A stretch of 64,000 nt of DNA from Vulcanimicrobiota bacterium (lineage in GTDB: Bacteria > Vulcanimicrobiota > Vulcanimicrobiia > Vulcanimicrobiales > Vulcanimicrobiaceae), in assembly GCA_027306785.1 (NCBI GenBank), contig DAHUZB010000017.1, forward strand, positions 46,197 to 110,196. The letters run 5' to 3'. Of this stretch, positions 4,985-61,082 are shown piece by piece. A program made the translations under genes and the position numbers. Numbering within the stretch: the first letter of the stretch is position 1; each line of letters opens with the position of its first letter. The notes under the pieces were generated by a model. The model saw only the letters and a program-made list of their open reading frames with translations, searched no databases and was not told the origin of the DNA.

Positions 4985-4986
4985 CG

Positions 4987-14045: not shown

Positions 14046-14108
14046 GGGGTCGATTCGCGGTCTTGCGGTTGGAGGGCCGTGGACCCTGCCTGCCGCAGGT
14101 TGTGAGTG

Positions 14109-21474: not shown

Positions 21475-23514
21475 TTACGTGCCCTTGTCGGCGCCCGCGT
21501 AGAAGATCCATTTCACGAGCGCTTGCGGCAGAGTAGAGAGCGTATTGGGATTGCCGTAGGCGACGTAGAGCTCGCTGTGGGCGAGTCGTGCGTGGAACGA
21601 GAGCGCGAGATTGGTGCAGCTGCCGATACACGATCCGCCGCCGTTGGGATCGGGCGGTGTGCCGACCACTTTGCGTACGCCGAGCGCGAACGACATATTC
21701 GATCCGAGTTGCAGCGTGTAGCCCACGCGTTCGAACCACTGCACGTTCGCACTACCCGGCAGCCACTGCGATGTGCTGTCGAGATCGAAGCTCAGTGCAC
21801 CGCGCGGTCCCACCTTGAGCGTGGTGCTACGCGTCCACGAATCCAGACGCCCGAGGCCGTAGCGGCCGGTGTTGTACGAGATCGTCGTCTCGTTCGCCGC
21901 GTTTCCGTGACAATCGATACAGCCGGTGTTGTTGGTCTGCGTGCCGCTGTTGAAGGTGATCTGCGCACCCTGCTGGTTGACCGGCGTCATGATGCCGTTG
22001 ATGCGCAGATAGCTCGCGCCGGTCGTCAGGAAGAGATCCACGCGTTTGCGCGTGAGGAGATCGAGTCCGATCCAGTTGTCGGTTTGGTTATACGCACCGT
22101 CGCTTCCATGATAGCGATCGACGATAGCGGAGAGTTCGACGTCGGCGATGGGCGAGCGCGGCGCAAACGTCCAGATTTTCTTCGAGAAGAGGCCGTACCC
22201 GGCGGCGCCGGGGAGTTGGATGAAGCCGTCGGCGGGATTGTAGTAGGTGCCGATCTTGCGGACCGATCCCCAGATCGAAAAGTCGGAGCTGTACCAGCCG
22301 CCGCCGCCGTCGTAGCGCTGCGCCTGATCGCCGCGCAGCACATTCGTACCACTGTCGCTGCCGTAGTTGAAGTAGAACGACGTATGCTTGTGATCGCCGT
22401 AGGCGACGCCCGCGGTATTCACATCGTCGTGTAGCCCCGGGAGATCGACCGCGACGCGCTGATCGGAGACCACCCACCGCGTATCGGGCGACTTGTACGA
22501 CACCGAGGTCGCCTGATCGTTGCGCTGCTCGCCGACCGCGTCGAACGCACCGAAACTGATCGGCCCCTGTACGCCTTCGACGGCGTACCCGTCGCGCGGC
22601 GTCGGAATGGCGGGCGTGTAGAGTTCGGTGATGCTCGGGCACGCATCGCAATCGAAGCGACCGTAGAAACTCGACCCCTGCGTAAAGAACGGACGTACTT
22701 CGCTATAGTACCGGGCGTACACGCTCGGCGAGATCGATTGCTGATCGAGCTCCACGTTCGAAAAGTCGGGATGGAAGGTGGCGTAGAGCGAGGCGGTCGG
22801 CGTGATCGGCAGCGAAAGATCGGCCCCGGTTCGCGTGGTCGATCCGCCGATGCTCGGGGCCGCGGCGGTGCCGAGCAGATAGGTGGCGAGCCGCGGTTGC
22901 GGCCGCGCCGCGACCGCAACGTCCATATCCAGCTTGCCCGCGTAGGTGAAGTCGTCGGGGTTGGTTTGCGCGGCGCCGTGCGTCCAGACTTGCTCTTCGC
23001 TCGTCGCCTGAATCACGCGCACGAACTGCGCTTCCCACACGCCCTTCCCGGCGCCGCGCAGGGCCGAGAGCGGGATGCGCATCGTCACGCGGTAGCCGTG
23101 CTTCGTGCGCGTTCCTTCGGAGTACCAGGAGGGCGCGTACGCGGAGTTTTCGCTCGACGACTGATAGTGCGTGCCGTTCGGCGTGGAGATGAAGCTGTAG
23201 CGGTACCCCTCTTCGCCTCTCGGCCAGAGATCGACCCAGACTTCGTCGTCGGTATCTTGCCCCACGTCGTCGGTGTGTTGCAGCGCGTGAATCGGCTCGC
23301 GCTGCACCGCATGGAATCGCACCGTGAGCGTGCGGCCGTCGCTCGAAACGCGCACGGTGGTCGGTTCGGACGCCGGGCGCTGATGCTGCACGTCCCAGCC
23401 GAGGGTGAGCGGTGCGCTCGTGCGCGCATTCACGGCGACGATCTCGCTTGCGCGTACGGCGGTTGGGCAGGTCGCGATCAGCAGCGCGGCGGCCAAAAGC
23501 GGGCGCGCGTTCAT
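21475..23514 (-). CDS. DUF5916 outer-membrane barrel with N-terminal CBM9-like domain
   Basis: About 679 residues from ATG 23514, which overlaps the stop of the pentapeptide gene (ATGA). A signal peptide comes first. Residues about 30-215 form a carbohydrate-binding-family-9/DOMON-like domain. The remainder is the DUF5916 region, recognised by FHPDFSNVELDQQSISPSVYARYYSEVRPFF, quoted here only in part as PDFSNVELD and RPFFTQGSSFY. C-terminal strands alternate polar and hydrophobic residues as in outer-membrane barrels. A CIDCHG (Cys-x-x-Cys-His) motif occurs near 21910. It could be a haem site or chance, since typical DUF5916 proteins lack one. Function unknown. Confidence 0.8.
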   Translation of the reverse strand: MNARPLLAAALLIATCPTAVRASEIVAVNARTSAPLTLGWDVQHQRPASEPTTVRVSSDGRTLTVRFHAVQREPIHALQHTDDVGQDTDDEVWVDLWPRGEEGYRYSFISTPNGTHYQSSSENSAYAPSWYSEGTRTKHGYRVTMRIPLSALRGAGKGVWEAQFVRVIQATSEEQVWTHGAAQTNPDDFTYAGKLDMDVAVAARPQPRLATYLLGTAAAPSIGGSTTRTGADLSLPITPTASLYATFHPDFSNVELDQQSISPSVYARYYSEVRPFFTQGSSFYGRFDCDACPSITELYTPAIPTPRDGYAVEGVQGPISFGAFDAVGEQRNDQATSVSYKSPDTRWVVSDQRVAVDLPGLHDDVNTAGVAYGDHKHTSFYFNYGSDSGTNVLRGDQAQRYDGGGGWYSSDFSIWGSVRKIGTYYNPADGFIQLPGAAGYGLFSKKIWTFAPRSPIADVELSAIVDRYHGSDGAYNQTDNWIGLDLLTRKRVDLFLTTGASYLRINGIMTPVNQQGAQITFNSGTQTNNTGCIDCHGNAANETTISYNTGRYGLGRLDSWTRSTTLKVGPRGALSFDLDSTSQWLPGSANVQWFERVGYTLQLGSNMSFALGVRKVVGTPPDPNGGGSCIGSCTNLALSFHARLAHSELYVAYGNPNTLSTLPQALVKWIFYAGADKGT

Positions 23515-24305
23515 CGGAGCACGGCGCCCGCGAGCGACGAGTTGCTCTTGCTCCGCAGCGTTGCGGGATCGATCGGCGAGCAGACATCGCGCCCGCGCAG
23601 GTGATCGCAGGTGAGCGCGCCGCGGAAATTCGCGCCCGCCACGTTCGCGCCGCGCAGGTCGACGCAATGCACCCCTTCGCGCAGCAGCGTGTCGTCGGAT
23701 TCACGTAGGTTGTGCCAACAGAGGGTGGCGCCGCCGAAGTTCGCGTTGCGCAGATCCGCATTCGAAAAATCGAGGCCGGTCAGGTTGGCGTGTCGGAAGC
23801 TCGTGCCGGCCGCGTCGGCGTGCGAGAGATTGCCGCCGATCATCGTGATGCCGTCGAGATTGCGGGCGTGGAGGTCCACGCCGCTCGCGTCGCAGCCGGT
23901 GCAGTGGTCGAGCAGGCCGCGCAGCGACGCGTTGCTCATTGCGCCGATCTTCACCTCGATGTCGGCGCCGATCAAACGCGTGTGGCCGAAGATCGCGCCG
24001 TCGAGATCGGCGCCGTCGAGATCGCAGCCGGTGAGATCGGCCCCGCGCAAATCGGCGCCGCGAAGATCGGCATCGCGCAGGTTCGATCCGGTGAAACGAG
24101 CGTCGCGCAGATCGGCGTTGCGCAGATTCGCACCGTCGAGATCGGCGCCCATGTAGGTTGCGTGTTCCAGATTCGCGCCGTGCAAATCGGCGCCGGCGAG
24201 ATCGCAACCGAGGCAGTGGGCGGGAGCGTCGGCGCGGGCCGACGGCATCCACACGGATGCGGCGAGGAGCAGTATGCCGAGAAGGACGTGTGTGAAGCGG
24301 CGCAT
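23511..24305 (-). CDS. Secreted pentapeptide-repeat protein
   Basis: About 264 residues from ATG 24305, with a Sec signal peptide (about 1-25). Pentapeptide repeats A(D/N)LxG run through most of the mature part, for example NADLRDARFTGSNLRDADL, forming a right-handed quadrilateral beta-helix. Two C-x-G-C elements (Cys31/Cys34 and Cys135/Cys138) precede repeat blocks with the pattern C-x-G-C-x4/5-DLH. The same element appears in the repeat domain of the upstream M56 protein. It is coupled to the DUF5916 gene by ATGA. A 104-bp gap separates it from the M56 gene and carries a GCATGCC/GGCATGC hairpin at 24351-24368. Role unknown; a partner or decoy of the sensor is possible. Confidence 0.82.
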   Translation of the reverse strand: MRRFTHVLLGILLLAASVWMPSARADAPAHCLGCDLAGADLHGANLEHATYMGADLDGANLRNADLRDARFTGSNLRDADLRGADLRGADLTGCDLDGADLDGAIFGHTRLIGADIEVKIGAMSNASLRGLLDHCTGCDASGVDLHARNLDGITMIGGNLSHADAAGTSFRHANLTGLDFSNADLRNANFGGATLCWHNLRESDDTLLREGVHCVDLRGANVAGANFRGALTCDHLRGRDVCSPIDPATLRSKSNSSLAGAVLR

Positions 24306-24409
24306 GAGGGCGATTCCTTTCCGAGATTCGTGCAAAGGGATGCCCGGGACGCATGCCGTGGGGCATGCGATCGAGGGCGAGTGGAGGGGCGGCTAGCGGT
24401 TAGCCGAGA

Positions 24410-26344
24410 TCAGCGCAGGATGGCATGCGAGAGATCGCTGCCGGAGAGTTGTACGTGCGAGAGATCGACGCCGCGCAGATCCACGCCGTCGAAGGTACAG
24501 CCCATGAAGGACGCGCCGTCGAGATGCGCGCCGCGTAGCGAGGCTCCGGTGAAGTTCACGCCGTCGAAGCTCGCATTGCGCAGGTCGGCGCCGGCGAGAT
24601 CGGCGCCGCGAAGGTTTGCGCCGATGAGATGAACGCCGCGCAGATCGACGCCGTGCAGATCGGCGTGGGCAAAGCTACAGCCGAGGCATGCCAGGAGCAC
24701 GTTACGTGCCTGCGTCGGCGGCAACTGGGAGATGTCGATGTCGCAGCCGTTCAGGTGCGCGCCGGTGAGATCGACGCCCGCGAGGCGAGCGCCGTGCATG
24801 TTGCAGCCGATCAGCGACGCGTTGCGGAACGAGACGTCGCGCAGATCGGCGTCGTGGAAATTGACGCCGTTGAGACGCGTGTTGTCGAAGTTCGCTCCGC
24901 GAAGATGCGCGTAGGCGAAATCGGTAGCGGTGAGCGATTGACCGCTGAAGTCCCGCCCGTCGAGGTGCGCCCGGCTGAAATTGCAGCCGTTGCAGCCGCG
25001 CTCTACCTGCGCGATGCGCACCTGTGGCACGTGAATCGGCGGAACGTGCACGGCAATGTGCTCGCTCGGAATCGCGATCGTCTTTGCCGGTATTGCGAGT
25101 GCGGGGATGCGAATGTGCTGCGCGGGAATGGTCACGCGGATGTCGTGCGCCGGCACGCTGCGTGCGGGAGCCGGCGAGGGGTGTGCCGTGATGCGAGCGA
25201 CCGGCTCGGGTGTGGCGGGAGCCGTGGGCGTTGCGGCAATCGCCGGGAGCGTGAACGCGATGCTCGGCGTGACCATGCGCAGTACCGCGATCACCGCGAC
25301 GAGCCCCGCGATCACGGCGGTCGCCGTGCTCGGCGTGATGCTGCGGCCGATCGCGCGCCCGCTGCGCAGCAGTCGCTCGATGCGAATCGAGATGTTTTTG
25401 CGCGTCACGAAGACGCCCGGAGCGGGCAACGGCGCATGCGGCCACGCCGTCATCTCCGCCATCTTGGTAAGGCAGAAGGCGTAGGGTTTGGCGGCGCCGG
25501 TGAGTTCGAGCACGAAATCGTCGCAGGCGACCTCGCGTTCCACATCCATCTGACGCCCGATGAACCACGCGGCCGGGTTGTAGAGCATCAGCGCGCAGAG
25601 CAGACGCTGCAGACCGTTCGACCAGTCGTCGCCGCGCAGCAGATGCGCGAGTTCGTGCAGGCAGATCTGATCGATCTCGCTCGTATCGAGCGCGTTCACG
25701 AGATGCTGCGGCAACAGGATCATCGCATCGAAGAGGCCGATCGCGACCGGCACTTCGATCTCGTCGGAGACGCAGATGCGCACGTCGCGCTCGCCTTTGC
25801 CGACGCGCTGCCACGCGTTCATCGTCTCACGGTGCTCCACCCCGAGCGGAAGCGCGTCGTTCTTCAAGCGTTCCAATTGCCGCAGGGCGACGAGTAGCCG
25901 TACCACGACGACGAGCGCGGCGACGGCCCAGAGCGCGAAGATGATGCTCGCGATCGCGCTCGGCACCGCGAATGCGAGGTGCCACGCGCGCGGCGCGGGT
26001 GACGATGCGGAGGATGTGGGCGGCGCGCTCTCGCGATGCGTGGCCGATGCGGCGCGAGCCGATATCGATGCAGCGGCGTGCGTCGTGCGTGCGGCGTGTA
26101 CGGTGACCGTGGATGCGGCGGCCGGGGGCGCGGTGACGCTGATGCGGGTGAGGCTGGTGGCGATCGGGGTGACGAAAAGCGCGATGAGCGCGAGGCTCCA
26201 CGCCGCGTAGCGCGTGCTCGCGTTCGCTTTGGGAAAGAGACGTAGCGCGAGCGCGGTCACGCCCGCGATGAGCGCGCCTTGCCACAGGCTGTTAAAGAGG
26301 ATCGCGGCGCCCAGATGCGCGGCGTCGGCGAATGCGCTTGCCAT
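24410..26344 (-). CDS. BlaR1/MecR1-like M56 protease fused to a pentapeptide-repeat domain
   Basis: 644 residues. The N-terminal part is a BlaR1/MecR1-type membrane metalloprotease: helices near 12-30, 45-62 and 122-150, then a cytoplasmic zincin with HELAH at 230-234 and EVACDD at 271-276, and a last helix near 335-355. In BlaR1 a penicillin-binding sensor follows. Here a Pro/Ala/Ile-rich linker (about 370-448) leads to about 195 residues of pentapeptide repeats (450-644) on the outer side. The repeat domain has Cys pairs at 451/454 and 553/556. The gene sits 3 bp after a BlaI-type repressor gene, so proteolytic derepression on an external signal is the natural model. The signal is unknown. 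Confidence 0.85.
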   Translation of the reverse strand: MASAFADAAHLGAAILFNSLWQGALIAGVTALALRLFPKANASTRYAAWSLALIALFVTPIATSLTRISVTAPPAAASTVTVHAARTTHAAASISARAASATHRESAPPTSSASSPAPRAWHLAFAVPSAIASIIFALWAVAALVVVVRLLVALRQLERLKNDALPLGVEHRETMNAWQRVGKGERDVRICVSDEIEVPVAIGLFDAMILLPQHLVNALDTSEIDQICLHELAHLLRGDDWSNGLQRLLCALMLYNPAAWFIGRQMDVEREVACDDFVLELTGAAKPYAFCLTKMAEMTAWPHAPLPAPGVFVTRKNISIRIERLLRSGRAIGRSITPSTATAVIAGLVAVIAVLRMVTPSIAFTLPAIAATPTAPATPEPVARITAHPSPAPARSVPAHDIRVTIPAQHIRIPALAIPAKTIAIPSEHIAVHVPPIHVPQVRIAQVERGCNGCNFSRAHLDGRDFSGQSLTATDFAYAHLRGANFDNTRLNGVNFHDADLRDVSFRNASLIGCNMHGARLAGVDLTGAHLNGCDIDISQLPPTQARNVLLACLGCSFAHADLHGVDLRGVHLIGANLRGADLAGADLRNASFDGVNFTGASLRGAHLDGASFMGCTFDGVDLRGVDLSHVQLSGSDLSHAILR

Positions 26345-26347
26345 GAG

Positions 26348-26734
26348 TTAGGCCTGCTCCTCGTAGCGGTCGATGAGCGCGCGCAGTTGGTCGAGCTCTT
26401 CGCGCGAGGGCTTTTCGCGTTCGATCAATCGCAGCGCGAGAGCGCTTCCGCTATCGCCGAAGAAGCGCGAGATCACGTGCTTGATCGCCGATTGCTCGGC
26501 GCTCGCGCGCTCCATCAGCGGACGGTAGATGTAGGCGCGACCCCCCGTCTCTTCGTGCGCGACGTGTCCTTTGGTTTCCAGAATGCGCAGCGTGGTGAGC
26601 ACGGTGTTGTACGCGATCGGCGGCGGCGGGAGCGCTTCGGTGATCTCGGCGACGGTCGCGCGTTCGAGACGCCACAGCACCTCCATCACGCGCAGCTCGG
26701 CGTCGGTCAGGGTCGGAGATTTTTTCCTTGCCAC
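26348..26734 (-). CDS. BlaI/MecI/CopY-family repressor
   Basis: About 128 residues from GTG 26734, with GGAGGG 5 bp upstream. The winged helix reads LTDAELRVMEVLWRLERATV, then AYNTVLTTLRILETKGHVAH, the BlaI signature. The C-terminal dimerisation region ends in a helix with DQLRALIDRYEEQA. Such repressors are inactivated by cleavage by a BlaR1-type protease. The adjacent M56 gene supplies one. Two CTAATTCTTTA(G/A) operators flank its own promoter, so autoregulation is likely. Confidence 0.9.
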   Translation of the reverse strand: MARKKSPTLTDAELRVMEVLWRLERATVAEITEALPPPPIAYNTVLTTLRILETKGHVAHEETGGRAYIYRPLMERASAEQSAIKHVISRFFGDSGSALALRLIEREKPSREELDQLRALIDRYEEQA

Positions 26735-26765
26735 GGTACCCTCCAGCCGCCATCCGGCAGCATCT

Positions 26766-26822
26766 ACTAATTCTTTAGGAGTACCATAGCCCGCCGCGTT
26801 CGGGTTGTCAACTAATTCTTTA
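26766..26822 (-). promoter_or_regulatory. BlaI-type promoter with twin operators
   Basis: The minus strand has TTGACA (26806-26811), a 17-bp spacer and TATGGT (26783-26788), a near-consensus promoter for the repressor-M56-pentapeptide operon. The 12-mer ACTAATTCTTTA appears at 26766-26777 and again at 26811-26822. Each contains CTAA-TTCT-TTA(G/A), a small dyad. One copy overlaps the -35 box and the other covers the predicted transcription start. The copies are AT-rich against a GC-rich background. Confidence 0.78.
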
Positions 26823-26920
26823 AGATATACCGGTCGAGCGACGGGACGGCGCGTTATTTCGCCGTCGGGGCGGGGTATCGAGGGGCGGTGAACGCTCACC
26901 GTCCTCGAGGAGGTTACCCC

Positions 26921-27148
26921 ATGCAGAAATGGTTCGGTGGACTCATCATCGTCGGCGCCTTTGCGCTCGCTGCCGGGATCGGCGGCATTGCCAGGGCCCA
27001 GCAGCCCGTGCCTACCGCCTGCCCGAGCACGAGCCCCTCGGCGCTCGGCGCACAAGCAACCCCGGAGCCGACGGAGTGCCCCTCCACCTCACCCGAACCC
27101 GGATCGCCCGCGCCCGAACCCACGGGCACGATGCACCCGGCGTTCTAG
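26921..27148 (+). CDS. Small secreted Pro/Ser/Thr-rich protein
   Basis: About 75 residues from ATG 26921, preceded by GAGGAGG. A signal peptide (MQKWFGGLIIVGAFALAAGI) is followed by a low-complexity mature part with the repeated element ECPSTSP/ACPSTSP and PEP-rich tail; two Cys lie in the repeated element. No family recognised. It diverges from the BlaI operon. Confidence 0.6.
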   Translation: MQKWFGGLIIVGAFALAAGIGGIARAQQPVPTACPSTSPSALGAQATPEPTECPSTSPEPGSPAPEPTGTMHPAF

Positions 27149-27157
27149 TCGGCCGGT

Positions 27158-27207
27158 AGGTTGGGGAGGCACGCGCGCGCAACAAGCGCGGCGTGCCTCC
27201 CCAACCT
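27158..27207 (+). promoter_or_regulatory. Perfect 17-bp hairpin covering the TfuA start codon
   Basis: AGGTTGGGGAGGCACGC (27158-27174) pairs without mismatch with GCGTGCCTCCCCAACCT (27191-27207) over a 16-nt loop that can itself pair further. It begins 9 nt after the upstream stop, so it may terminate that transcript, but no U-run follows. The 3' arm contains the only plausible TfuA start (GTG 27193). The 5' arm contains GGGGAGG, a Shine-Dalgarno-like string. Folding would therefore limit TfuA translation. Confidence 0.65.
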
Positions 27208-27852
27208 GCTCGGCTTGCGGTCTTCTGCGGGCCATCGCTTCCCGCATCGGATCGCGTCATTGCGCCGTGGATCAGCTATTTGCCGCCCGCGGCACGCGGT
27301 GACGTCGAGCGCGCTGCGCTCGAATTCGACGCCGTGCTGCTGATCGACGGCGTGTTCCATCACGATCTCGCGCCGTCACCCAAAGAATGCTACGCCGCGC
27401 TCGCGCACGCACGCATGTACGGCGCATCGAGCATGGGCGCGTTGCGCGCCGCGGAGTGCGCCCCCTATGGTTTTACACCGCTCGGCGCGATCGCGCGCTG
27501 GTACGCCTACGATGTGATCGACGGCGACGACGAAGTCGCGGTGCTGACGAACCCGAGCACGCACGACGCCCTCACGGTGCCGGTCGTGAACGTGCGCTAC
27601 GTGGCGCGCCTCGCGCATCGGCGCGGCATCATGACGACCGCCGAGCGCGACGATTTCGTACGCCGAGCCCGCTCCGTTTTTTATATGGATCGAACCTGGG
27701 ATGACGTCATCGACGCGGCACCCGCGCACGCGCGCACGGCCGTCGCGACGATCGCCGCAGCCGAAGGCGACCTCAAACGCCACGATGCCCGCTTCGCGCT
27801 GCGGTCTGTACTGCGGCGGCAGGAGGGCATGGCGGCCGACGGAATAGGGTAG
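27193..27852 (+). CDS. tfuA: TfuA-like protein, YcaO partner
   Basis: 219 residues matching the TfuA core domain. FCGPSLP (11-17) and PPAARGDV are near the N-terminus. IDGVF (51-55), GASSMGALRAAE (77-88) and GDDEVAV (111-117) follow, in the family order. TfuA proteins assist YcaO enzymes, and the known pairs install thioamides in peptides (thioviridamide type, thiovarsolins) or in methyl-CoM reductase. Start GTG 27193 is needed to keep the N-terminal strand and lies inside a strong hairpin. It heads the RiPP cluster; the precursor gene follows after 47 bp, a gap with a small CCGAGG/CCTCGG hairpin at 27858-27872. Confidence 0.88.
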   Translation: MPPQPARLAVFCGPSLPASDRVIAPWISYLPPAARGDVERAALEFDAVLLIDGVFHHDLAPSPKECYAALAHARMYGASSMGALRAAECAPYGFTPLGAIARWYAYDVIDGDDEVAVLTNPSTHDALTVPVVNVRYVARLAHRRGIMTTAERDDFVRRARSVFYMDRTWDDVIDAAPAHARTAVATIAAAEGDLKRHDARFALRSVLRRQEGMAADGIG

Positions 27853-27899
27853 GCCTGCCGAGGGTTCCTCGGTGTGTGTCGTTTAGCCGGGGAGTATCG

Positions 27900-28367
27900 A
27901 TGCCAGACTATTCGGAAATGTCCATCGCCTTTTTGCAGAAGCTTCGCGCTTCGCAAGAGCTTGCCACCGAGTTTTTCCGCCTTCGTAACGATGGGACCAC
28001 GCTGTCGCGGTTTGTCCGCGAGACATTGGGTCTCGCCGACGCTCTGACGCACGACGATCTCGCCGCGATGGAAGCGGCCCTTGCACCGCACATCGACGCT
28101 GGTATTTCCGCGGCATTTGCCACAGGTGCCGGATCTGCGGGTCATGTCGGCATGGCGTTCGTCGTACAGAGCGACGCGCCGAGCCACGTTGGCGAGGGTT
28201 TCGTGGTGCAGCACGACGCGCCGAGTCATGTTGGCTCGGGCTTCGTGGTTCAGGGCGATGCACCGAGTCATGTTGGCTCGGGCTTCGTGGTGCAGAACGA
28301 TGCGCCGAGTCACGTCGGCATGGCGTTTGTTGTGCAAAAAAGCGGCGGCAAGCCTGAGGCAGCGTAA
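27900..28367 (+). CDS. Multi-core RiPP precursor peptide with five repeats
   Basis: 155 residues from ATG 27900, with GGGGAG 6 nt upstream. Residues 1-81 form a leader. Its first part (MSIAFLQKLRASQELATEFF and LTHDDLAAMEAALA) resembles Nif11-type leaders. Residues 82-146 contain five copies of HVG(M/E/S)(A/G)FVVQ, separated by four spacers xDAPS (x = S, H, G, N), an exact 14-residue period. A short tail KSGGKPEAA ends the protein. The cores hold no Cys or Ser except in variants. Backbone chemistry (thioamide), His or Gln changes or methylation is therefore more likely than azoles. It lies between tfuA and two ycaO genes. Precursor role is inferred from the repeats and the context. Confidence 0.85.
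   Translation: MPDYSEMSIAFLQKLRASQELATEFFRLRNDGTTLSRFVRETLGLADALTHDDLAAMEAALAPHIDAGISAAFATGAGSAGHVGMAFVVQSDAPSHVGEGFVVQHDAPSHVGSGFVVQGDAPSHVGSGFVVQNDAPSHVGMAFVVQKSGGKPEAA
28143..28337 (+). repeat. Five in-frame 42-bp core repeats
   Basis: Core units begin at 28143, 28185, 28227, 28269 and 28311. Each has 27 bp encoding HVGxxFVVQ, and the first four are followed by 15 bp encoding xDAPS. Units 3 and 4 are almost identical, pointing to recent duplication. The first and last units share the variant HVGMAFVVQ. Confidence 0.9.
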
Positions 28368-28400
28368 ATCCGCTTCTCTAAATAGACGTGTCAACTTATG

Positions 28401-28425
28401 CGAGTCGCGGGTCATCTGCGGCTCG
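28401..28425 (+). terminator. Hairpin after the precursor gene, possible attenuator
   Basis: CGAGTCGC (28401-28408) pairs with GCGGCTCG (28418-28425) with one G-U wobble, loop 9 nt, followed by TGTTTCATTC. It lies in the 80-bp gap between precursor and first ycaO. A weak terminator here would give more precursor than enzyme transcript, as is usual in RiPP clusters. Confidence 0.4.
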
Positions 28426-28447
28426 TGTTTCATTCAGCGAATCGTCA

Positions 28448-29725
28448 ATGACAAATCCGTTCTCCGAACGCGCACCGATCTCGTTCCCGGCGTCGCCGAA
28501 AACTGCTGGTAGCGCCGACCGCTGTGTGCCGCTCACACGGACGTACGCGTTGTTGCCGGAACTGCGCCGCCGCTATGGAATCACACGGGTCGGCGATACC
28601 ACGCTGCTCGATCGCACGGGTTTTCCTACCTACTGCGCGATCGTCCCGGAGTCTCCCGATCTCATTAGTGTATACAATGGCAAAGGGCGCACGCATCAGG
28701 CGGCTGCCGTAAGCGCTGTTATGGAGGCTGTGGAGCGTCAGATCGCTGCTGCCGCTCCGCTCGATCGCATCCGCATGCCGGTGCACGAGCTCCTTTTGTA
28801 CCTCGATCTCGACACTCTCGGGCTTTATCCGGGTGCTCGCGACCTTGAGACCGAAGTCGTTGCCGGCACTGACCTTGTGTCTGGTGCGGTCATCCCAGTA
28901 CCGCTTGCGTTGGTACAGTGCCCTTGGTATGGCGAGCGCCTTTTTCCAAGCGCTAGCAGCAATGGCCTCGCGTCGGGCAATACCGTTGCTGAAGCAACGT
29001 ATCACGCACTAACCGAAATCGTCGAGCGACACATTTGGTCGCTGTTTTATGTGCGCTCTCAACTCGTTCCGCGATTCTATCTCGGGGCCGGCTCCGGCGA
29101 CATCGCGCATGCGAAAGAGATTCGTCGGCCGACAGGGGTTTCGGTACTTGACGATATGCTCGGCCAGATCGATGAAACCGGTATGGGTATCCGACTTCTC
29201 GCACTAGAGGAGCCCGGACTTCCTATCGTCGTGCTCGCATCATTGACGGAATCCGATACCACGCCACCTCTTGCGCACACCGGCGTGGGATGCTCTCTGT
29301 CTCCCGCCCACGCAGCGGAGCGTGCGTTGACCGAGTGCGTGCAGAGTCGCGTAATCGACATCCAGGCTGCCCGCGAGGACATTCTCCGCCACGACGAGCC
29401 CGAGGGCATCATGGGATCGCACGCGCGCCGAAAGCTCTCGCTGCCGAAGGGTCGTTGGTATCACGATCTACCGACTGCGAGCGTGGAAATTGCCGAGATC
29501 GACGACCTTATGAGCGGCGATATTGCCGTAGATATCGAAACGATCGTGCGCGGCATGACTGCGTACGGCATCCACCAGATCGCGGTTGTAGATCTGTCGC
29601 CAAAAGATCTCCCGATATCGGTGGTGCGAGTCGTGGCACCTCTCGCCGAAACGACGACGATCGATCGTCGCATCGGTCCTCTTGCACGACGTGAATTCAA
29701 CCCCTTCTACGTGCGCGGCGCGTAA
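28448..29725 (+). CDS. ycaO: YcaO cyclodehydratase/thioamidase 1
   Basis: About 425 residues from ATG 28448. YcaO enzymes use ATP to activate a peptide-bond oxygen. ATP/Mg motifs are intact: NGKG (77-80), SAVMEAVER (89-97), SSNGLASGN (170-178) and TEIVER (189-194). ITRVGDTTLLDRTGFPTYCA near the N-terminus is shared with the second YcaO of the cluster, so they are paralogues. The C-terminus ends NPFYVRGA, lacking the PxPxP tail of azoline YcaOs, which fits the TfuA-linked class. Third codon positions look less GC-biased than in neighbours, which suggests a different history. Likely substrate: the multi-core precursor just upstream. Confidence 0.9.
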   Translation: MTNPFSERAPISFPASPKTAGSADRCVPLTRTYALLPELRRRYGITRVGDTTLLDRTGFPTYCAIVPESPDLISVYNGKGRTHQAAAVSAVMEAVERQIAAAAPLDRIRMPVHELLLYLDLDTLGLYPGARDLETEVVAGTDLVSGAVIPVPLALVQCPWYGERLFPSASSNGLASGNTVAEATYHALTEIVERHIWSLFYVRSQLVPRFYLGAGSGDIAHAKEIRRPTGVSVLDDMLGQIDETGMGIRLLALEEPGLPIVVLASLTESDTTPPLAHTGVGCSLSPAHAAERALTECVQSRVIDIQAAREDILRHDEPEGIMGSHARRKLSLPKGRWYHDLPTASVEIAEIDDLMSGDIAVDIETIVRGMTAYGIHQIAVVDLSPKDLPISVVRVVAPLAETTTIDRRIGPLARREFNPFYVRGA

Positions 29726-29792
29726 TACATAGTCCATCGTACCCATCGCTGCAGGCGAGCTGTCGCCATGACGCTAATGATTCGCGGCGACC

Positions 29793-30620
29793 GTGGCACA
29801 GAGCGAGCAGATCAAAGCCCTCCTTCACGCGCATCACGAGCGCTTCACCGGTTCCACGGGGCGTCTGTTCAGCGCATTTCTCAGCGACGCCGGGCTGACA
29901 TCGTATGCCACCCTTGCCGCAGTGCTCGATGTGCGCGCGGGGCAGTCGGTCCTCGATATCGGCTGCGGCGACGGCGTGCTGCTGGCGTCCATTTTCGATC
30001 GTGAACCCGGCGTGTCGCTGCACGGGCTCGACGCCTCCGGTGCGGAGCTGGCGCTCGCGCGAGAGCGCGTTCCAGGCGCCGCCCTCGTGCAGGGCGATTG
30101 CACCGAGCGTCTGCCCTATCCCGACGCGGTGTTCGACGCCGTCGCGTCTCATCTCGTGCTGATGCTCGTCGGCGATATCGAGACGACGTTTGCCGAGGTT
30201 CGCCGCGTCGCAAAGCCCGGCGCGGCGTTCGCCTTCATCTACGACGATTTGGCAAGCGATGCGGACGGCGTCTATGCCGACTTGATGCGCACGGGGGTCG
30301 TCGCCGGCTTGGGCGAGTCTCCTTCGCACTTCCGCCAAGCAGCCGACCCTCGTCTGTACGATCACGAGGCGTTACGCGAGCTCTGCGCTCGCCACGATCT
30401 CGAGATCGCGGAGCATCGCCGTTTTCGCGTCTCACGCGAGATTACGTGCGATGACGATGCTTGGGCGCTCCTTGCGACGAGCTACCCCTTGGGTCGCCTC
30501 GACGACGAAGCGCGCGCACGCGCGCGTACCGCGGTGCTGGGGCGTTTTCGCGAACGGTTCGGAGCCTCGGCCGCCGTCGCGCTCCCGCTGCAACTGATCA
30601 AAGCGTATAGAGCGTCGTGA
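29793..30620 (+). CDS. Class I SAM-dependent methyltransferase of the RiPP cluster
   Basis: 275 residues from GTG 29793. The SAM-binding motif I VLDIGCGDG lies at 53-61; an acidic residue ends strand 2 (HGLDAS) and motif II-IV follows as DAVASHLVLML. The family is the UbiE/Methyltransf_11 type. It is embedded between two ycaO genes and its TGA overlaps the GTG of the second (GTGA), so it probably tailors the modified peptide (N-, O- or S-methylation). Substrate inferred from context only. Confidence 0.85.
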   Translation: MAQSEQIKALLHAHHERFTGSTGRLFSAFLSDAGLTSYATLAAVLDVRAGQSVLDIGCGDGVLLASIFDREPGVSLHGLDASGAELALARERVPGAALVQGDCTERLPYPDAVFDAVASHLVLMLVGDIETTFAEVRRVAKPGAAFAFIYDDLASDADGVYADLMRTGVVAGLGESPSHFRQAADPRLYDHEALRELCARHDLEIAEHRRFRVSREITCDDDAWALLATSYPLGRLDDEARARARTAVLGRFRERFGASAAVALPLQLIKAYRAS

Positions 30621-31855
30621 GGTTCCTTCCCGCGCGCGAACCGAAAGCACCGGGCATGCGCGATCGCGCGGTAACGGTGCAGCGCACCCTCGCCGCCGCG
30701 GAGGGCTTTCGTCGACGCTTCGGCATCACGCGCGTGGGCGAAACTACGCTGCTCGATCGCACGGGGATTCCGAACTATTGCGCGATCGTGCCGAATTCAT
30801 GCGATGTGCTCGGCGTCTATAACGGCAAAGGGCGCACACCGGACGAGGCGCGCGTGAGCGCGATGATGGAGGCCGTCGAACGACAGGTCGCGGCGAACGT
30901 CGAACTGCCAACGCAGCATCGCACGCTCGGCGAGGTGCTCTCGCGGCTCGATCTCGCGCCGCTGGAACTGCTGCCGATCGATCCGGCTGATTCGCTTGAA
31001 TGTGTCGACGGCGTCGATATCATGAGCGGTGAAGCCGTGCCGGTTCCGCTTGCGCTCGTACGCTTTCCCTGGCGCGGAAAACGCCTGTTGAAACGGAGTA
31101 GCACGAACGGGTTGGCCTCGGGGAACACGCCTGCCGAAGCGGTGTACCACGCGCTGACGGAGATGATCGAGCGGCATCTCTGGTCGCTCTACGTCGTGCG
31201 CTGCGAGATTCTTCCGCGCTACTATCGAGGCGACGCAGCGGCCGATCTTCCGCGCGCTCGCGCACTTCGCTTTCCGACCGGCGATGCGGTCATCGACGAA
31301 TTGCACGACCGTATCCTCGCGAGCGGCCTCACGCTGCGCGTCTCGATGCTAGAAGAGGATCCGTTCGTCCCCGCGGCGCTCGCCTGCGTGGTTGAACCCC
31401 ATTCCGATCCGCCGATGGCGCACATCGGCCTTGGCGCTTCATTATCGACGGCGCATGCCGTGGAACGGGCGTTGAACGAGGTTGTGCAGAGCCGCGTCGT
31501 CGACGTGCAAGCCGCCCGCGAAGATATTCAGCGCGCCGATGAAGAGGGCGGCAACACGCACGCCAAGCGCATATCGGAACTCCCGAAAAACCGTTGGTAC
31601 GTCGATTTGGCTGCTCCGTCGGTTGCCTTGGACGAATTACCCGAGCTCTCAAGCGACGATATCGTTCGGGATGTCGATACGCTCACGCAACAGATGCGAG
31701 CCGCCGGGATAACGCAGTGCGTCGCCGTGCCGCTACTGCAAGAACAAGGTCTGAGCGTGGTGCGCATATGTGCGCCGCGCTTTGAAACGTCGGCGGTTGA
31801 CGGTCGATTGGGACCGATCGCCCTCGCCGAACTCAATCCACTCGCTCCCGTATGA
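30617..31855 (+). CDS. ycaO: YcaO cyclodehydratase/thioamidase 2
   Basis: 412 residues from GTG 30617, coupled to the methyltransferase (GTGA); ATG 30656 is an alternative. ATP-binding motifs are intact: NGKG (69-72), SAMMEAVER (81-89), NGLASGN (164-170) and TEMIER (181-186). Overall organisation matches the first YcaO, including GITRVGETTLLDRTGIPNYC and RLGPIALAELNP at the end. With one TfuA and two YcaOs, division of labour is likely: different cores, different residues, or a heteromeric complex. Confidence 0.9.
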   Translation: MRFLPAREPKAPGMRDRAVTVQRTLAAAEGFRRRFGITRVGETTLLDRTGIPNYCAIVPNSCDVLGVYNGKGRTPDEARVSAMMEAVERQVAANVELPTQHRTLGEVLSRLDLAPLELLPIDPADSLECVDGVDIMSGEAVPVPLALVRFPWRGKRLLKRSSTNGLASGNTPAEAVYHALTEMIERHLWSLYVVRCEILPRYYRGDAAADLPRARALRFPTGDAVIDELHDRILASGLTLRVSMLEEDPFVPAALACVVEPHSDPPMAHIGLGASLSTAHAVERALNEVVQSRVVDVQAAREDIQRADEEGGNTHAKRISELPKNRWYVDLAAPSVALDELPELSSDDIVRDVDTLTQQMRAAGITQCVAVPLLQEQGLSVVRICAPRFETSAVDGRLGPIALAELNPLAPV

Positions 31856-31867
31856 AGGTGACCACAG

Positions 31868-32158
31868 ATGCAGGACCACGAACACCAAGCCGCCGCCGCC
31901 AAGATCGTCGCCGCCGTCAAGAACAACAGGAACGGAGCCTACGACGAATGGGTCTCGAGCGGTTCCGATCTCAAGAGCAAGGACGCGCAAGCGGCGTTCA
32001 TCCAGAAGCACGCCGGCCTCGCCGCAACGCCGAGCGCCGGCGATATGAATGCGATCTACGGGCACGTCAAGGATTCGCTTCAAAGCGACGTGAGTGCCAT
32101 CGCCGCGAAGAACCCAGGCGCAAATACCGTTGGGAGCTTTTGCTTAGCTGAGGAATAG
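31868..32158 (+). CDS. Candidate second RiPP precursor (single core, Cys-containing)
   Basis: 96 residues, AAGGTG ribosome site, 12 bp after the second ycaO. The first about 80 residues are helical and charged (AAAAKIVAAVKNNRNGAYDEW, given in part), leader-like. The end reads GANTVGSFCLAEE. TVGSFCLAE aligns loosely with the repeated core HVGSGFVVQ of the first precursor: both begin x-V-G-S and have Phe then hydrophobics. The only Cys is in this tail. It might instead be an accessory protein; precursor status is inferred. Confidence 0.6.
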   Translation: MQDHEHQAAAAKIVAAVKNNRNGAYDEWVSSGSDLKSKDAQAAFIQKHAGLAATPSAGDMNAIYGHVKDSLQSDVSAIAAKNPGANTVGSFCLAEE

Positions 32159-32159
32159 A

Positions 32160-34745
32160 TTACGAAGCCGAGGGGCTGTTTGCGACATACCACACTGCGA
32201 CCTGGGATCGAGCGCCGACATTCAGCTTGTTGAATATGTTCGAGACATGCCCCTCGACGGTTCGCTCGCTGAGTACAAGGCGCTCGGCGATCTCTTTGTT
32301 GGTGAGGCCTTCTGATACAAAGCGGGCGACTTCGCGCTCACGCCGGGAGAGAGCAGCGAGAATGCCGGCGGGCGACGGCCGTTCGTCATGAATGACTGAT
32401 TCCGTGGCCCTGGCGAGGTTGGCGAAGAACGGCGACGACAGCATCTGAAAGGCTCTCTCCGTATGCGCTACCTTTTGGTTCTCCGACTGTAAAGCGAGAA
32501 AATGGCGCGCCTCTAAGCTTGCTAGATCGTGATGGGCGACGGACCACGGATAGCGGTCGCGAGGTAAGCAACCATCGGCGATATGCCGCAAGAGGTCGGT
32601 TCTATTGCATCTCTGGGCCGCGCGCACGATCATCGTGGGTATCCAGAATATCTGCGGTTCAAACGGCTGTGATGCCAAGCGGAGTGCTGCCTCCGTAAAG
32701 CGGTTGGCACGCTGGGCGTCGTTCGAAAGTGCGGCGGCTGCACAGAGCAGTGGTAGCAGCACCGGCGTTTCTAATGTATGCAAGCCGATCTCCGCTTCAT
32801 GCTCGATAGCGCGAAGAATCACCGGTGGCGGAGCGTTTCCCGACAATACGCTCGCCGCACCGGAGATTCCGAGGAAAATGCGGCGAGAAAATGGGCCCAG
32901 CTCTCTCTCGAAATGCTCCTCGATCCGCTCGATCGCGTCCTTTGGCGAGTTCGACGCGAGAAGCGACATAGCTTCGATGTGCATGCGAATGTTTTCTCGT
33001 GGAGGCAGATGCGATAGCGCATTCGCGAGGTTAGTCCCGACGCAACCTTGATAGTGAAAGTGGAAAAGTGCATCACCTGCGTTGATCATGACGTTCATGA
33101 CTTTGGGGGCGCCATGTCGCTCGACGAGTGTTCGAGCTCGATCTCGTTGCTCGATCCATCCGCTTGCATCGCCGATGCGGGCTCTCAGCTGGCCTTGAAA
33201 CACATGTGCGCGGATATCGAAGATCGGATTTTCGTCGATATTTGCGAGCTCCCTTAGGTACGATTCGAATTGTGTGGAATCGTTGACGGCGAATGCCGCG
33301 TATAGCTTTGCGCCGATTATGTGGCCACGATCGAGTGAGTCGACAAGCAACTCGTCATACTGCCGAACCGCGTTCCAAAATTCAGCGCGCCCGCCGATGT
33401 GCCAAAGATTGAATAGCAACTGAGCCGCGAGTTGTCCGAGTCCCTTTTTCCAGCCTGCACGCGTAGCGCGGCTGAGGGCCTCACGGCAGACGATGATCGC
33501 ATCGCCGCCGTTCGTCGCATTTTGAATCAGCGATAGGCGCTCGTAGTAGCGAAGAGATTGCTCGCTGAACGGCGTGAGATCGATGATGCGCCTCAAGGCG
33601 TTTGAGACAACGTGAAATAACGATTCACTTTCCGCATCTTCGGCGATGCGATGCAGGTACGTCAGCTCTAAATCCCGTTCGCCGCAAGCGGCCGCTTGTT
33701 CGGCGAGACGTTCGAGGCGTTCGACGCTTTGCTGCGGGAGCGACTCGATCGCTGCGATGATGCGCTTGCGGTACGGGATGTCGATCGGAAGCGTTTCGCG
33801 CACGCTTTGCATCACCGTCAGATGCACGAAGCGTAGGCTCGTGCTGTCTTGCACCAAATAGGTTCCCGATGCTTCGCGGATGAGCGCAAGCAGCTCATCT
33901 TGAGGCCACATGGCGCCGAGGATCGGCAATTCGATGGGATCACCGATCAGCGCGCAAATTTGTAGGAACTCACGCAAGGCCGGTTTCAGGCGCGCAATCG
34001 TGGCCGCGACGATGGATCGCGCCGAGGCGGCGACTTCGTCGGCGGTGAGATGCGCGTGATCGTCGGAGAGTGAGGCGATCGTGGTGATATCGATCGCACG
34101 GCCGCGCGCATGGTGCACGACGGCGCGGATCACCTCGTCCGCGGCGGTGGGCATCAGCGTTCGCGCGAGCCGCTCCGCGGCCGACGCGGTGAATTCGCGG
34201 ACGAGGATGGTTTCGTCGATGTACTCGAATGCCGGCTCCGAGTCTTCGTCGCTGCGGTCAACCAGCATGAGCACCAACGGGCGATCCGCGTAGAACTGAA
34301 TCGCGCGCAGCAGGAGGGCGCCCGATTCGCGATCGGCCCACTGTGCGTCGTCGATCACGAGCACCAGCGGGCGATCGAGCAGCACCGCTTCGACAAGGCG
34401 GAAAAACGCGGAATCGAAAGCGGCCGTGTCGGCGGTCTCGCGTAACGCGCCTTCGAGGCCTGACGTATAACGCGGCGCCTCGTCGCTGAGCGTTCGGATC
34501 GTCTCTTCGGCGAGTCGGCGGGCAACGATCAGCGGCAGCGTGGCCTGGATACGATGAGCGGCCACGAGCGGGGCTATCCATCCCTCGGCCTGAGCGGCGT
34601 CCCGGGCCGCTCCTGCAAGGGCGGTCTTGCCGTTGCCGCTCGCGCCGGTGATGCGGAGAACTCGGGCGACGCGTTGCGTTTTTGCTTGGTCGAGAAAGCG
34701 GGCGATCCGCCGCAGTTCCTCGTCACGCCCGATGATGGTACCCAC
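32160..34745 (-). CDS. LuxR-type LAL regulator (ATPase plus C-terminal HTH)
   Basis: About 861 residues from GTG 34745. Walker A GASGNGKT (34-41) follows a GRDEELRRI start, and Walker B is LVLVIDDAQWAD. A long alpha-helical TPR-like middle leads to a LuxR helix-turn-helix in the last 65 residues: LSRREREVARFVSEGLTNKE, then RTVEGHVSNIFNKL. Such large activators often control secondary-metabolite clusters. It converges on the RiPP genes with one base between stops and is the likely cluster regulator. The 3' half looks more AT-rich than the 5' half. Confidence 0.9.
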   Translation of the reverse strand: MGTIIGRDEELRRIARFLDQAKTQRVARVLRITGASGNGKTALAGAARDAAQAEGWIAPLVAAHRIQATLPLIVARRLAEETIRTLSDEAPRYTSGLEGALRETADTAAFDSAFFRLVEAVLLDRPLVLVIDDAQWADRESGALLLRAIQFYADRPLVLMLVDRSDEDSEPAFEYIDETILVREFTASAAERLARTLMPTAADEVIRAVVHHARGRAIDITTIASLSDDHAHLTADEVAASARSIVAATIARLKPALREFLQICALIGDPIELPILGAMWPQDELLALIREASGTYLVQDSTSLRFVHLTVMQSVRETLPIDIPYRKRIIAAIESLPQQSVERLERLAEQAAACGERDLELTYLHRIAEDAESESLFHVVSNALRRIIDLTPFSEQSLRYYERLSLIQNATNGGDAIIVCREALSRATRAGWKKGLGQLAAQLLFNLWHIGGRAEFWNAVRQYDELLVDSLDRGHIIGAKLYAAFAVNDSTQFESYLRELANIDENPIFDIRAHVFQGQLRARIGDASGWIEQRDRARTLVERHGAPKVMNVMINAGDALFHFHYQGCVGTNLANALSHLPPRENIRMHIEAMSLLASNSPKDAIERIEEHFERELGPFSRRIFLGISGAASVLSGNAPPPVILRAIEHEAEIGLHTLETPVLLPLLCAAAALSNDAQRANRFTEAALRLASQPFEPQIFWIPTMIVRAAQRCNRTDLLRHIADGCLPRDRYPWSVAHHDLASLEARHFLALQSENQKVAHTERAFQMLSSPFFANLARATESVIHDERPSPAGILAALSRREREVARFVSEGLTNKEIAERLVLSERTVEGHVSNIFNKLNVGARSQVAVWYVANSPSAS

Positions 34746-34835
34746 GGTTGCTAGCTTACGCGCCGAAACCAGGTATTTCCCCGGATGGGGAGCGGGGGGC
34801 GGGCGCGGTAGGCTGTGGGCATGGAGGAACGGGAC

Positions 34836-35180
34836 ATGTACGCACAGGCGCTGCGCTTCGACGAATTCAACGGCTCTTTGGAGGGCAGAAGGCGAGCAGG
34901 AGTACCCTACTGTTTCATCCTCGATGAGGCCTATCAGGTCGTGATGGCGGGTCCCTCGGGGGGCACCGATCCCCTTGCGCCGATGTACGACGCGAATTCG
35001 GAGATCAACGTGCTCCCAGGTCCGATCGATCGCGTGGTGCGCGCCCTGACCGCCACCTGGCGCTCGTCGCGTACGGCCTCCAGCGCGACGGCAGCGGTGA
35101 GCGATCTGCAGGTCACCGTCGCGCCGCTCCACGGCAACGAGGGGCGCCGGATCGCGGTTTTCGTGCAGCGCGGCGACTAG
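34836..35180 (+). CDS. Stand-alone PAS-like domain protein
   Basis: About 114 residues from ATG 34836, which has GGAGG 8 nt upstream (an ATG at 34821 lacks this). The segment GVPYCFILDEAYQVVMAGPS and the end VTVAPLHGNEGRRIAVFVQR resemble the sensor PAS unit that precedes LuxR helix-turn-helix domains, but no DNA-binding domain follows. It diverges from the LAL gene, so it might be a detached sensor for it. Function unproven. Confidence 0.55.
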   Translation: MYAQALRFDEFNGSLEGRRRAGVPYCFILDEAYQVVMAGPSGGTDPLAPMYDANSEINVLPGPIDRVVRALTATWRSSRTASSATAAVSDLQVTVAPLHGNEGRRIAVFVQRGD

Positions 35181-35221: not shown

Positions 35222-37216
35222 GTGCAAGAACAAGCGACCCCCCGCGTCGATCGCCGCGTCGAGCTGACCCTGCGCGGTCTCTTCCTCGGCGGCTTGATCA
35301 CCCTGGTCTTTACCGCAGCGAACGTCTATCTCGGCCTCAAGGTCGGATTGACGTTCGCTTCGTCTATTCCGGCGGCCGTCATCTCGATGGCGGTGCTGCG
35401 CGGCTTCAAAGACTCCACGATCTACGAGAACAACATCGTGCAGACCGTCGCGTCGGCGGCGGGCACGCTGTCGTCGGTCATTTTCGTGCTGCCCGGCCTC
35501 GTGATGGTGAGCTGGTGGACGGGCTTCCCGTTCTGGGAATCGTTCGGCATCTGTGCGGTCGGAGGCATCTTGGGCGTGATGTACAGCGTGCCGCTGCGGC
35601 GCGCGCTCGTGACCAACTCCGATCTGCCCTACCCCGAAGGCGTGGCCGCGGCCGAAGTGCTGCGCGTCGGCGCGGGTTCGCATAACGAAGAAGCGGCAGC
35701 CGAGAACAAACTCGGACTCGTCGCGCTGGTCGTGAGTTCGCTCGTCTCCGCGTTCTTTCAAGTGCTCGAAGGCCTCAAGCTCTTCGCTTCGGAGTTCGAT
35801 GCGTATTTTCGCGCCGGTTCGGTGACGACGGGCATGGGCTTCGGCATGTCGCTCGCGCTCGTCGGCGCGGGGCATCTGATCGGCCTCACCGTCGGCCTCG
35901 CGATCTTCGCGGGTTTGATGATCGCGTGGGGCGTCGCGGTGCCGATTCTGACGGCGCTGCATCCGATGGCGGGCTCGGCGGTCGACGTGGCGGGCGCGAT
36001 TTGGTCGCACTACGTGCGCTTCATCGGCGCGGGCACGATCGGCGCCGCCGCGATCTGGACGCTCGGCAAACTCGTCGCGCCGGTCGTTTCGGGCGTGAGC
36101 TCGGCGATGGCCGCGCAGCGCCGACGCAAGAGCGAAGGGCACGAATCGCTGCCGATCACCGAACGCGATCTGCCGATCGGCATGGTCGCGGGGATCTCGC
36201 TCGTCTGTCTGATTCCGATGGTGATTCTGCTCGCCGCATTCCTCGCGGGCGGCGTGCTGCAAGCGATGATGCTGCCGCTCGTGCTCGGCGCGCTCGTCTA
36301 CATCGTGCTCGCGGGCTTCTTGGTCGCCACCGCAACGGGCTACATGGCGGGGCTGATCGGCTCGTCCAACTCGCCGGTCTCGGGGATGGCGATTCTCTCG
36401 GTCGTCGGCGCCGCGCTCTTGCTCGTGCTGCTCGCCGGAAACGCGGCCCCCGCCGCAAAACCCGCGCTCGTCGCCTATGCGCTCTTCGTCACCGCGCTGC
36501 TCATCAACGTCGCCACCATCTCGAACGACAATCTGCAAGATCTCAAAACGGGGCAGTTGGTGGAGGCGACGCCGTGGCGTCAGCAGGTCGCGCTGATCGT
36601 CGGCGTGATCTTCGGGGCGATCATCATTCCGCCGGTGCTCAATGCGCTCAACTCCGCCTACGGCTTCGGCACCGGCGCGCACGCACTGCCCGCACCGCAA
36701 GCCGTGCTCATCTCAACGCTCGCCAAAGGCGTGATCGAAGGCAAGATCGACTGGTCGCTGATCGGCATCGGCGCGCTCGTGGGCGCGCTCATCATCGCGA
36801 TCGACGAGATCGGCGGTATGACCAAGAAGTTCCGCCTGCCGCCGCTCGCCGTGGGGCTCGGCATCTATCTGCCCGCATCGGCAACGGCGCCCGCCGTGGT
36901 CGGCGCGGTCTTCGGCGCGCTCTACAACCGCTGGGTGAAATCGCGCCCTAACGCCGATGCTGCGCGCCGTCTCGGCGTGCTGGTCGCATCGGGCATGATC
37001 GTAGGCGAAAGCATTTGGGGCGTGGTCTATGCGGGCGTCATCGTCGCCGCGCAAAAAGGCCTCATCCACGTGCCCGATCCGTCGCAACCGATCGCGATCG
37101 TCGGCAACGCCTTCGCGCCGGCGGCGTCGGCGCTCGCGGGCATCGCGTTTCTGGTGGTGCCGTTCCTACTGTATCGCTGGATCGGCAACCGCGCGAAGCG
37201 TCTCGGTCCGACGTGA
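35222..37216 (+). CDS. OPT-family oligopeptide transporter
   Basis: 664 residues from GTG 35222 with about 14 to 16 hydrophobic helices. Family blocks are present: LTLRGLFLGGLITLVFTAAN, NVYLGLKVGLTFASSIPAA, NNIVQTVASAAGTLSS and SDLPYPEGVAAAEVL. OPT proteins take up peptides or metal chelates with protons. Its location just outside the RiPP cluster makes a role in peptide handling possible but unproven. The 3' end overlaps the next gene by 51 bp. Confidence 0.92.
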   Translation: MQEQATPRVDRRVELTLRGLFLGGLITLVFTAANVYLGLKVGLTFASSIPAAVISMAVLRGFKDSTIYENNIVQTVASAAGTLSSVIFVLPGLVMVSWWTGFPFWESFGICAVGGILGVMYSVPLRRALVTNSDLPYPEGVAAAEVLRVGAGSHNEEAAAENKLGLVALVVSSLVSAFFQVLEGLKLFASEFDAYFRAGSVTTGMGFGMSLALVGAGHLIGLTVGLAIFAGLMIAWGVAVPILTALHPMAGSAVDVAGAIWSHYVRFIGAGTIGAAAIWTLGKLVAPVVSGVSSAMAAQRRRKSEGHESLPITERDLPIGMVAGISLVCLIPMVILLAAFLAGGVLQAMMLPLVLGALVYIVLAGFLVATATGYMAGLIGSSNSPVSGMAILSVVGAALLLVLLAGNAAPAAKPALVAYALFVTALLINVATISNDNLQDLKTGQLVEATPWRQQVALIVGVIFGAIIIPPVLNALNSAYGFGTGAHALPAPQAVLISTLAKGVIEGKIDWSLIGIGALVGALIIAIDEIGGMTKKFRLPPLAVGLGIYLPASATAPAVVGAVFGALYNRWVKSRPNADAARRLGVLVASGMIVGESIWGVVYAGVIVAAQKGLIHVPDPSQPIAIVGNAFAPAASALAGIAFLVVPFLLYRWIGNRAKRLGPT

Positions 37217-61080: not shown

Positions 61081-61082
61081 AT

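Follow-up and report, generated by a model that had tools for sequence, protein, structure and literature searches.

A predicted TfuA-YcaO peptide locus with two YcaO genes and a five-core precursor in a Vulcanimicrobiota genome

What would be made by a gene cluster in which a single tfuA gene is accompanied by two ycaO genes and by a precursor peptide with five core repeats? Such a cluster occupies positions 27193–32158 of a 64,000-nucleotide stretch (referred to below as the window) of contig DAHUZB010000017.1 from a Vulcanimicrobiota bacterium (GenBank assembly GCA_027306785.1), an uncultivated organism whose closest relatives place it in the Eremiobacterota. Comparison with related genomes indicates a predicted locus for ribosomally synthesized and post-translationally modified peptides (RiPPs), a member of a phylum-wide family that is real and well supported at the sequence level and that files under TfuA-YcaO RiPP clusters. 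The locus, which combines one TfuA, two YcaO proteins, a methyltransferase and two precursors with related leaders (one of them five-core), probably makes backbone-thioamidated peptides (estimated probability 0.74).

Gene organization and the five-core precursor

All six genes lie on the + strand in the order tfuA, precursor 1, ycaO1, methyltransferase, ycaO2 and precursor 2, closely packed, exactly where an earlier reading of this DNA (the original prediction) had placed them. The tfuA gene (27193–27852; 219 amino acids, aa), the sole tfuA of the cluster alongside two ycaO genes, encodes a protein matching PF07812 (E=3e-30) and, as its closest solved structure, TfuA 6xp8 (E=2.6e-25). It is followed by precursor 1 (27900–28367; 155 aa), for which the ATG at 27900 appears to be the best choice of start. 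Translation of ycaO1 (28388–29725; PF02624, E=1.6e-50) from a GTG at 28388 gives 445 aa, but the gene may start instead at the ATG at 28448 (425 aa). The remaining genes encode a class I S-adenosylmethionine methyltransferase (29793–30620; 275 aa; PF08241, E=5.1e-18), YcaO2 (30617–31855; 412 aa; PF02624, E=2.5e-49) and precursor 2 (31868–32158; 96 aa). Methyltransferase-like genes were found in 13 of 21 named loci of the family (L053–L073). Neither precursor matched any Pfam or NCBIfam family; both were recognized by the precursor profile described below (E=4.5e-25 for precursor 1 and E=7.9e-34 for precursor 2).

Precursor 1 consists of a helical leader (residues 1 to approximately 75) followed by the five cores of the original prediction, encoded by five 42-nucleotide units at 28128–28337. 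The units (AGSAGHVGMAFVVQ, SDAPSHVGEGFVVQ, HDAPSHVGSGFVVQ, GDAPSHVGSGFVVQ and NDAPSHVGMAFVVQ) are in frame with a period of 14 residues, and the repeat is therefore not due to chance. Since the differences between units are mostly silent (mean pS 0.59 versus mean pN 0.175), the repeated peptide is under protein-level constraint, and the constrained part is the core block, not the linker. The division into a nonapeptide core HVGxxFVVQ and an xDAPS spacer, as originally proposed, does not hold: the conserved block is [D/N]APxHVGxxFxMQ, with DAPS inside it. Unit 1 (AGSAGHVGMAFVVQ) is devoid of DAPS, and six single-core database relatives (P0002–P0007) carry APSHVG, showing that DAPS belongs to the core block and is no spacer; the amplification therefore took in the entire block. 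A structure model of precursor 1 (mean predicted local distance difference test score, pLDDT, of 62.7) places four helices within residues 4–74, with a leader pLDDT of approximately 90, while residues 76–149 score below 50. In this model the leader is folded and the core disordered.

The precursor family and its core classes

With the repeat open reading frame (ORF) as sole query, the only database relative recovered was P0002 (96 aa; C-terminus DAPSHVGFITGMQQNS). A precursor profile built from 12 peptides was used to search 149 genomes of the phylum, and matched 30 of them at E≤0.1 and 27 at E≤1e-6 (8 of the latter had contributed to the profile and 19 had not). A YcaO family profile, built from ten sequences and run on the same genomes, gave matches at E≤0.001 in 35, namely the 27 precursor-positive genomes, genome G095 and seven with distant proteins. 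In every one of the 27 precursor-positive genomes the closest listed precursor–YcaO pair shares a contig, at a distance of 19–4148 bp. G095 was missed by the precursor profile search and contains a divergent precursor beside its YcaO, so that all 28 genomes with a close YcaO have a precursor. The named loci, which stem partly from the same genomes, all contain a precursor match at E≤0.002 (21/21).

The original prediction was to stand or fall with a repeat precursor conserved next to related ycaO/tfuA pairs. What recurs beside YcaO (27/27 genomes plus G095) is the leader family; the repeat itself is not conserved, five cores being found, among the precursors read, only in precursor 1 of the window, and two cores in one relative (locus L057). 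The constant association argues against the idea that TfuA and YcaO act on a cellular protein, such as McrA or uL16, and that the small ORFs are unrelated to them. TfuA/YcaO pairs or YcaO alone do modify these two proteins (PMC5589413, PMC13063428), but the small-ORF family adjoins this YcaO family in every one of the 28 genomes and, judging from the structure model, shows a folded leader and a variable tail. A cellular target is thus highly improbable.

A larger precursor profile identified 27 proteins among 5.8 billion clusters, all 75–102 aa long save the 155-aa precursor of the window. The 50 distinct precursors divide into 25 whose core is of the MQ type ([A]P.[H/T]VGxxxxMQ[Q/H]), 17 whose core is of the Cys type (VVGxxCLAED; one of these matches by accident) and 8 that follow neither pattern. 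The dipeptide [V/I/L]G occurs within the final 20 residues of 42 of the 50, and the Gly of the core VG is near-invariant across 30 aligned members. Among the matches listed, PF07862 (Nif11) hit one of 30 members (E=0.0089) and none of the others, and comparison of the precursor profile with seven Nif11 ORFs of the phylum gave a probability of 2.6%. Elsewhere in the phylum, in another family, a Nif11-type peptide adjoins a distant YcaO (G045:C3:325832–327227).

The small gene at 31868–32158, whose presence had been noted originally and whose role had been missed, is, on sequence grounds, a second precursor with a leader related to that of precursor 1. Its single core ends with NTVGSFCLAEE, and counterparts are present in both known congeners (loci L065 and L066). 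One precursor of each core class is therefore present in the window, alongside a single TfuA and YcaO proteins of two lineages.

Would the five-core chain be cut? Single-core relatives bear exactly one core block, at the C-terminus, and this, together with the constraint on the block and not the linker, fits the repeated release of one product. The alternative, that the chain stays uncut and yields one long multi-thioamidated product, or releases its last core alone, is compatible with a family without a known cleavage motif and with the scanned neighbours, among which no protease gene is evident; it is considered fairly unlikely.

Core number varies in other ways. In L057 a precursor gene (3144–3518, + strand) encodes two cores (TPSAVGFFILMK and APTTLGFFFIMQQ), apparently by an independent core duplication, and a second, single-core precursor gene (4700–4987) lies beside it. 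Locus L012 contains three single-core precursor genes in a tandem row. Cores therefore multiply by more than one route, and the one-, two- and five-core precursors and the L012 row together show several routes of RiPP core multiplication. All 21 named loci are known from metagenome assemblies; the locus would add a predicted thioamidated-peptide family, with its own leader, spread across a phylum known here only through such assemblies.

YcaO lineages and the origin of the precursor 1 segment

YcaO2 is the orthologue of the one family YcaO that each congener has (79% identity in L065 and 67% in L066), with which it clusters in the trees (support 100/99 and 100/100, and 100/99 in a second tree including database proteins). 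The TfuA protein is 82–83% identical to those of the congeners. YcaO1 falls with database proteins P0029–P0039 (12 rows; 94/90), of which P0029 is the closest (68% identity; 61–68% for P0029–P0034). Among the best 80 of 536 confirmed loci retained as YcaO1 relatives, the top 21 (43–55% identity) come from metagenome-assembled genomes of Eremiobacterota or of unnamed bacteria, and the remainder, at ≤35%, include Asanoa, Streptomyces, Granulicella, Actinomadura and archaea. The APSHVG precursor P0006 and P0037 of the YcaO1 lineage are each listed with a 3557-base JGI contig, and the CLAED precursor P0017 and P0095 of the YcaO2 lineage each on one of 91015 bases; the members of each pair likely share one contig.

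Two adjacent full-length family YcaO genes were detected by the YcaO profile in no other genome of the 149; G099 has two family YcaO genes, on separate contigs. The combination of two YcaO lineages with one TfuA provides a natural test of which enzyme governs substrate choice. The genome of the window also encodes a third YcaO (L016, 7046–8545, + strand; G000:C33:240965–241918), which is closer to the SagD model than to the thioamide type (187.7 bits against the azole-type TIGR03604; cut-off 219.25); the gene preceding it has no Pfam match.

Comparison by blastn of the window with L065 revealed two matching blocks, 27229–27815 (L065 6459–7045) and 29729–32339 (7094–9703). Between them, from tfuA to the methyltransferase gene, the window has 1913 bases (27816–29728, + strand) and L065 only 48. 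The single further match, at 28517–29388, is that of ycaO1 with the congener's only ycaO (63%). L066 also contains a single YcaO and a single precursor. Precursor 1 and ycaO1 are therefore missing from both known congeners, a fact overlooked in the original prediction, and the 1.9-kb segment was probably inserted. This comparison suggests that precursor 1 and ycaO1 probably entered an older tfuA–methyltransferase–ycaO2–precursor 2 locus as one module.

The GC content at third codon positions (GC3) is lower in precursor 1 (0.67) and ycaO1 (0.63) than in tfuA (0.79), the methyltransferase gene (0.76) and ycaO2 (0.71). Two observations count against an import. The neighbouring LuxR-type gene is comparably low in GC3 (0.68), which makes this measure weak evidence, and in the tree without database proteins the YcaO2 clade is the weakly supported sister group of YcaO1 (86/83). 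Both would suit an old paralogous pair, retained here and lost by the congeners. Such a history is nevertheless fairly unlikely, since it requires two losses instead of one gain and since YcaO1, once database proteins are added, joins P0029–P0039, apart from the YcaO2 clade.

Predicted modification, known systems and neighbouring genes

YcaO proteins are ATP-using, backbone-modifying enzymes whose products include azol(in)es, amidines and thioamides. For both YcaO proteins of the cluster the closest solved structure is MJ1094 (6pe3; E=9.9e-28 for YcaO1 and E=5.8e-28 for YcaO2), and the closest family models for YcaO and TfuA are those of the McrA-glycine thioamidation pair. Given these MJ1094- and TfuA-type nearest relatives, the McrA-pair models and a precursor with a folded leader and disordered core, backbone thioamidation of the core is the best reading. 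Several points weigh against it: the YcaO proteins score 193.5 and 200.9 bits against TIGR03266 (equivalog cut-off 365) and TfuA 149.8 bits against NF033432 (cut-off 235.2), all below these thresholds; the core Val-Gly is absent from 8 of the 50 precursors; and neither a protease nor an exporter gene is evident among the proteins of the cluster and the 20 flanking ones scanned by Pfam.

The breadth of YcaO chemistry, and the conserved Cys (VGxxC) of precursor 2 and its class, raise the question of whether azol(in)es or amidines are formed instead of thioamides. However, the partner here is a TfuA, with tfuA and ycaO fused into a single ORF in 9 of the 21 named loci (L054–L062), and no E1-like or dehydrogenase partner occurs among the six cluster genes. 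The SagD-type model TIGR03604 is matched (E=1e-21 to 1e-22) much less well than the McrA type. Precursor 1 contains no Cys, and Ser/Thr are absent from three of its five HVGxxFVVQ nonamers, leaving little substrate for azole formation. Azol(in)e or amidine products are accordingly very unlikely.

In the thioamidation pathway proposed here, TfuA would liberate the sulfide of a thiocarboxylated carrier, and YcaO, using ATP, would exchange a backbone oxygen for sulfur, most likely at or beside the conserved Val-Gly of each core. The helical leader would serve as the docking part. Each YcaO may have its own substrate, precursor 1 for YcaO1 and precursor 2 for YcaO2, with TfuA, and perhaps the methyltransferase, common to both; proteases could then cut the precursor 1 chain into up to five peptides. 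With Gly-centred cores next to McrA-type enzymes, thioglycine formation on short peptides becomes directly testable.

Thioviridamide-type thioamitides have a single Ala/Ser-rich core and extra tailoring genes; the cores of the window, in contrast, are HVGxxFVVQ, and such tailoring genes are not among the Pfam matches of the cluster. A closer parallel is provided by the thiovarsolin clusters of Streptomyces varsoviensis and its relatives, in which YcaO and TfuA are present, the thioamide has been demonstrated and precursors range from a non-repeating form in Asanoa ishikariensis to forms with five imperfect repeats (PMC6511847). The likeness lies in a repeating precursor, here also with five repeats, combined with YcaO/TfuA. 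The thiovarsolin systems differ in their APR core, heme-oxygenase-like VarO, amidinotransferase and ATP-grasp protein, whereas the cluster of the window has two YcaO proteins and a methyltransferase, and its leader and core are different ones. None of these three additional proteins is represented in the Pfam matches of the cluster or of the 20 flanking proteins scanned, precursor 1 contains neither an APR nor a GPR motif (its units being DAPSHVGxxFVVQ), and the YcaO of Asanoa hainanensis is only 35% identical to YcaO1. TfuA-YcaO peptides with repeated cores are thus already known; what sets this locus apart is its second YcaO and the precursor with five cores. The claim that no known product matches was upheld to the extent that no description of a TfuA/dual-YcaO five-core cluster was found in the accessible open-licence literature, but the thiovarsolins, which the original prediction itself had named, are a five-repeat thioamidated precedent.

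McrA thioglycine formation in Methanosarcina acetivorans requires both tfuA and ycaO, while certain methanogens have two ycaO genes and one tfuA and certain species form thioglycine without TfuA (PMC5589413). The sulfide is supplied by a thiocarboxylated ThiS-like carrier together with the TfuA hydrolase (PMC13063428). This system shares with the window the nearest solved and modelled enzymes, a prominent Gly (the target in McrA, a conserved core residue here) and, in some methanogens, the two-ycaO, one-tfuA complement; its target is a large enzyme subunit, whereas the cluster has dedicated precursors. In the two-YcaO dehydrazole cluster of Candidatus Thioglobus, one YcaO per precursor and another, shared enzyme have been proposed (PMC10676384), but its chemistry, azole formation and dehydration, is not TfuA-dependent.

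Global mining of TfuA-YcaO clusters in RefSeq genomes (April 2020) also revealed adjoining ycaO/tfuA genes with small precursor ORFs, some of the Nif11 type (PMC8120280); a term search of its main text found no "Eremiobacter", "WPS-2", "repeat" or "two YcaO". Marine members of the phylum make other RiPPs (PMC9259500) and gene clusters of glacier streams have been surveyed (PMC11834409); "thioamid" and "YcaO" are absent from both main texts. The open-licence literature searched contained nothing joining Eremiobacter with TfuA, or Vulcanimicrobi with thioamid.

Downstream of precursor 2, on the − strand, lies an AAA_16/LuxR-type gene (32160–35132; PF00196, E=5.3e-19; PF13191, E=8.1e-19). It converges tail-to-tail on precursor 2, and 18 of the 21 named loci have this arrangement (L053 runs into the end of its contig; no such gene is seen in L068 or L070), which makes a regulatory link likely and this gene a probable candidate cluster regulator. 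A more far-reaching proposal holds that YcaO installs thioglycine at each core Val-Gly in a new Eremiobacterota RiPP class, that cassettes of a precursor and a YcaO are added to a common TfuA/methyltransferase locus, and that the regulator reads the peptides as signals, the five cores raising the dose; as a whole this is unlikely. A second AAA_16/LuxR-type regulator (53830–56535, − strand) resembles the first over the helix-turn-helix part only.

A gene for an OPT-family transporter (35222–37216, + strand; PF03169, E=9.3e-101) follows, and one is also found near the cluster in 5 of the 21 named loci; its putative link to the cluster is possible. Upstream lies an adjacent pair of AhpC/thioredoxin-like genes (20360–21388, + strand), of which one recurs close to the cluster in 10 of 24 loci and the other in 9.

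Further observations concern other parts of the window. A BlaR1-type M56 peptidase is fused to a pentapeptide-repeat region (24410–26344, − strand), adjoined by a BlaI-type repressor (26348–27055) and a pentapeptide-repeat-like ORF (23511–24335). An 855-aa ORF (13041–15608, − strand) carries NadA (quinolinate synthase) in its C-terminal 290 residues, and its first 560 residues have no Pfam match at E≤0.001. At the end of the window, a defence-like stretch (59562–63696, − strand) encodes a TIR-domain protein (60184–61080), an unassigned protein, a small ORF partly similar to LmuA/Avs1a and a GajB-type helicase (62032–63696; PADLOC, E=2.2e-94, with the match starting at profile position 118).

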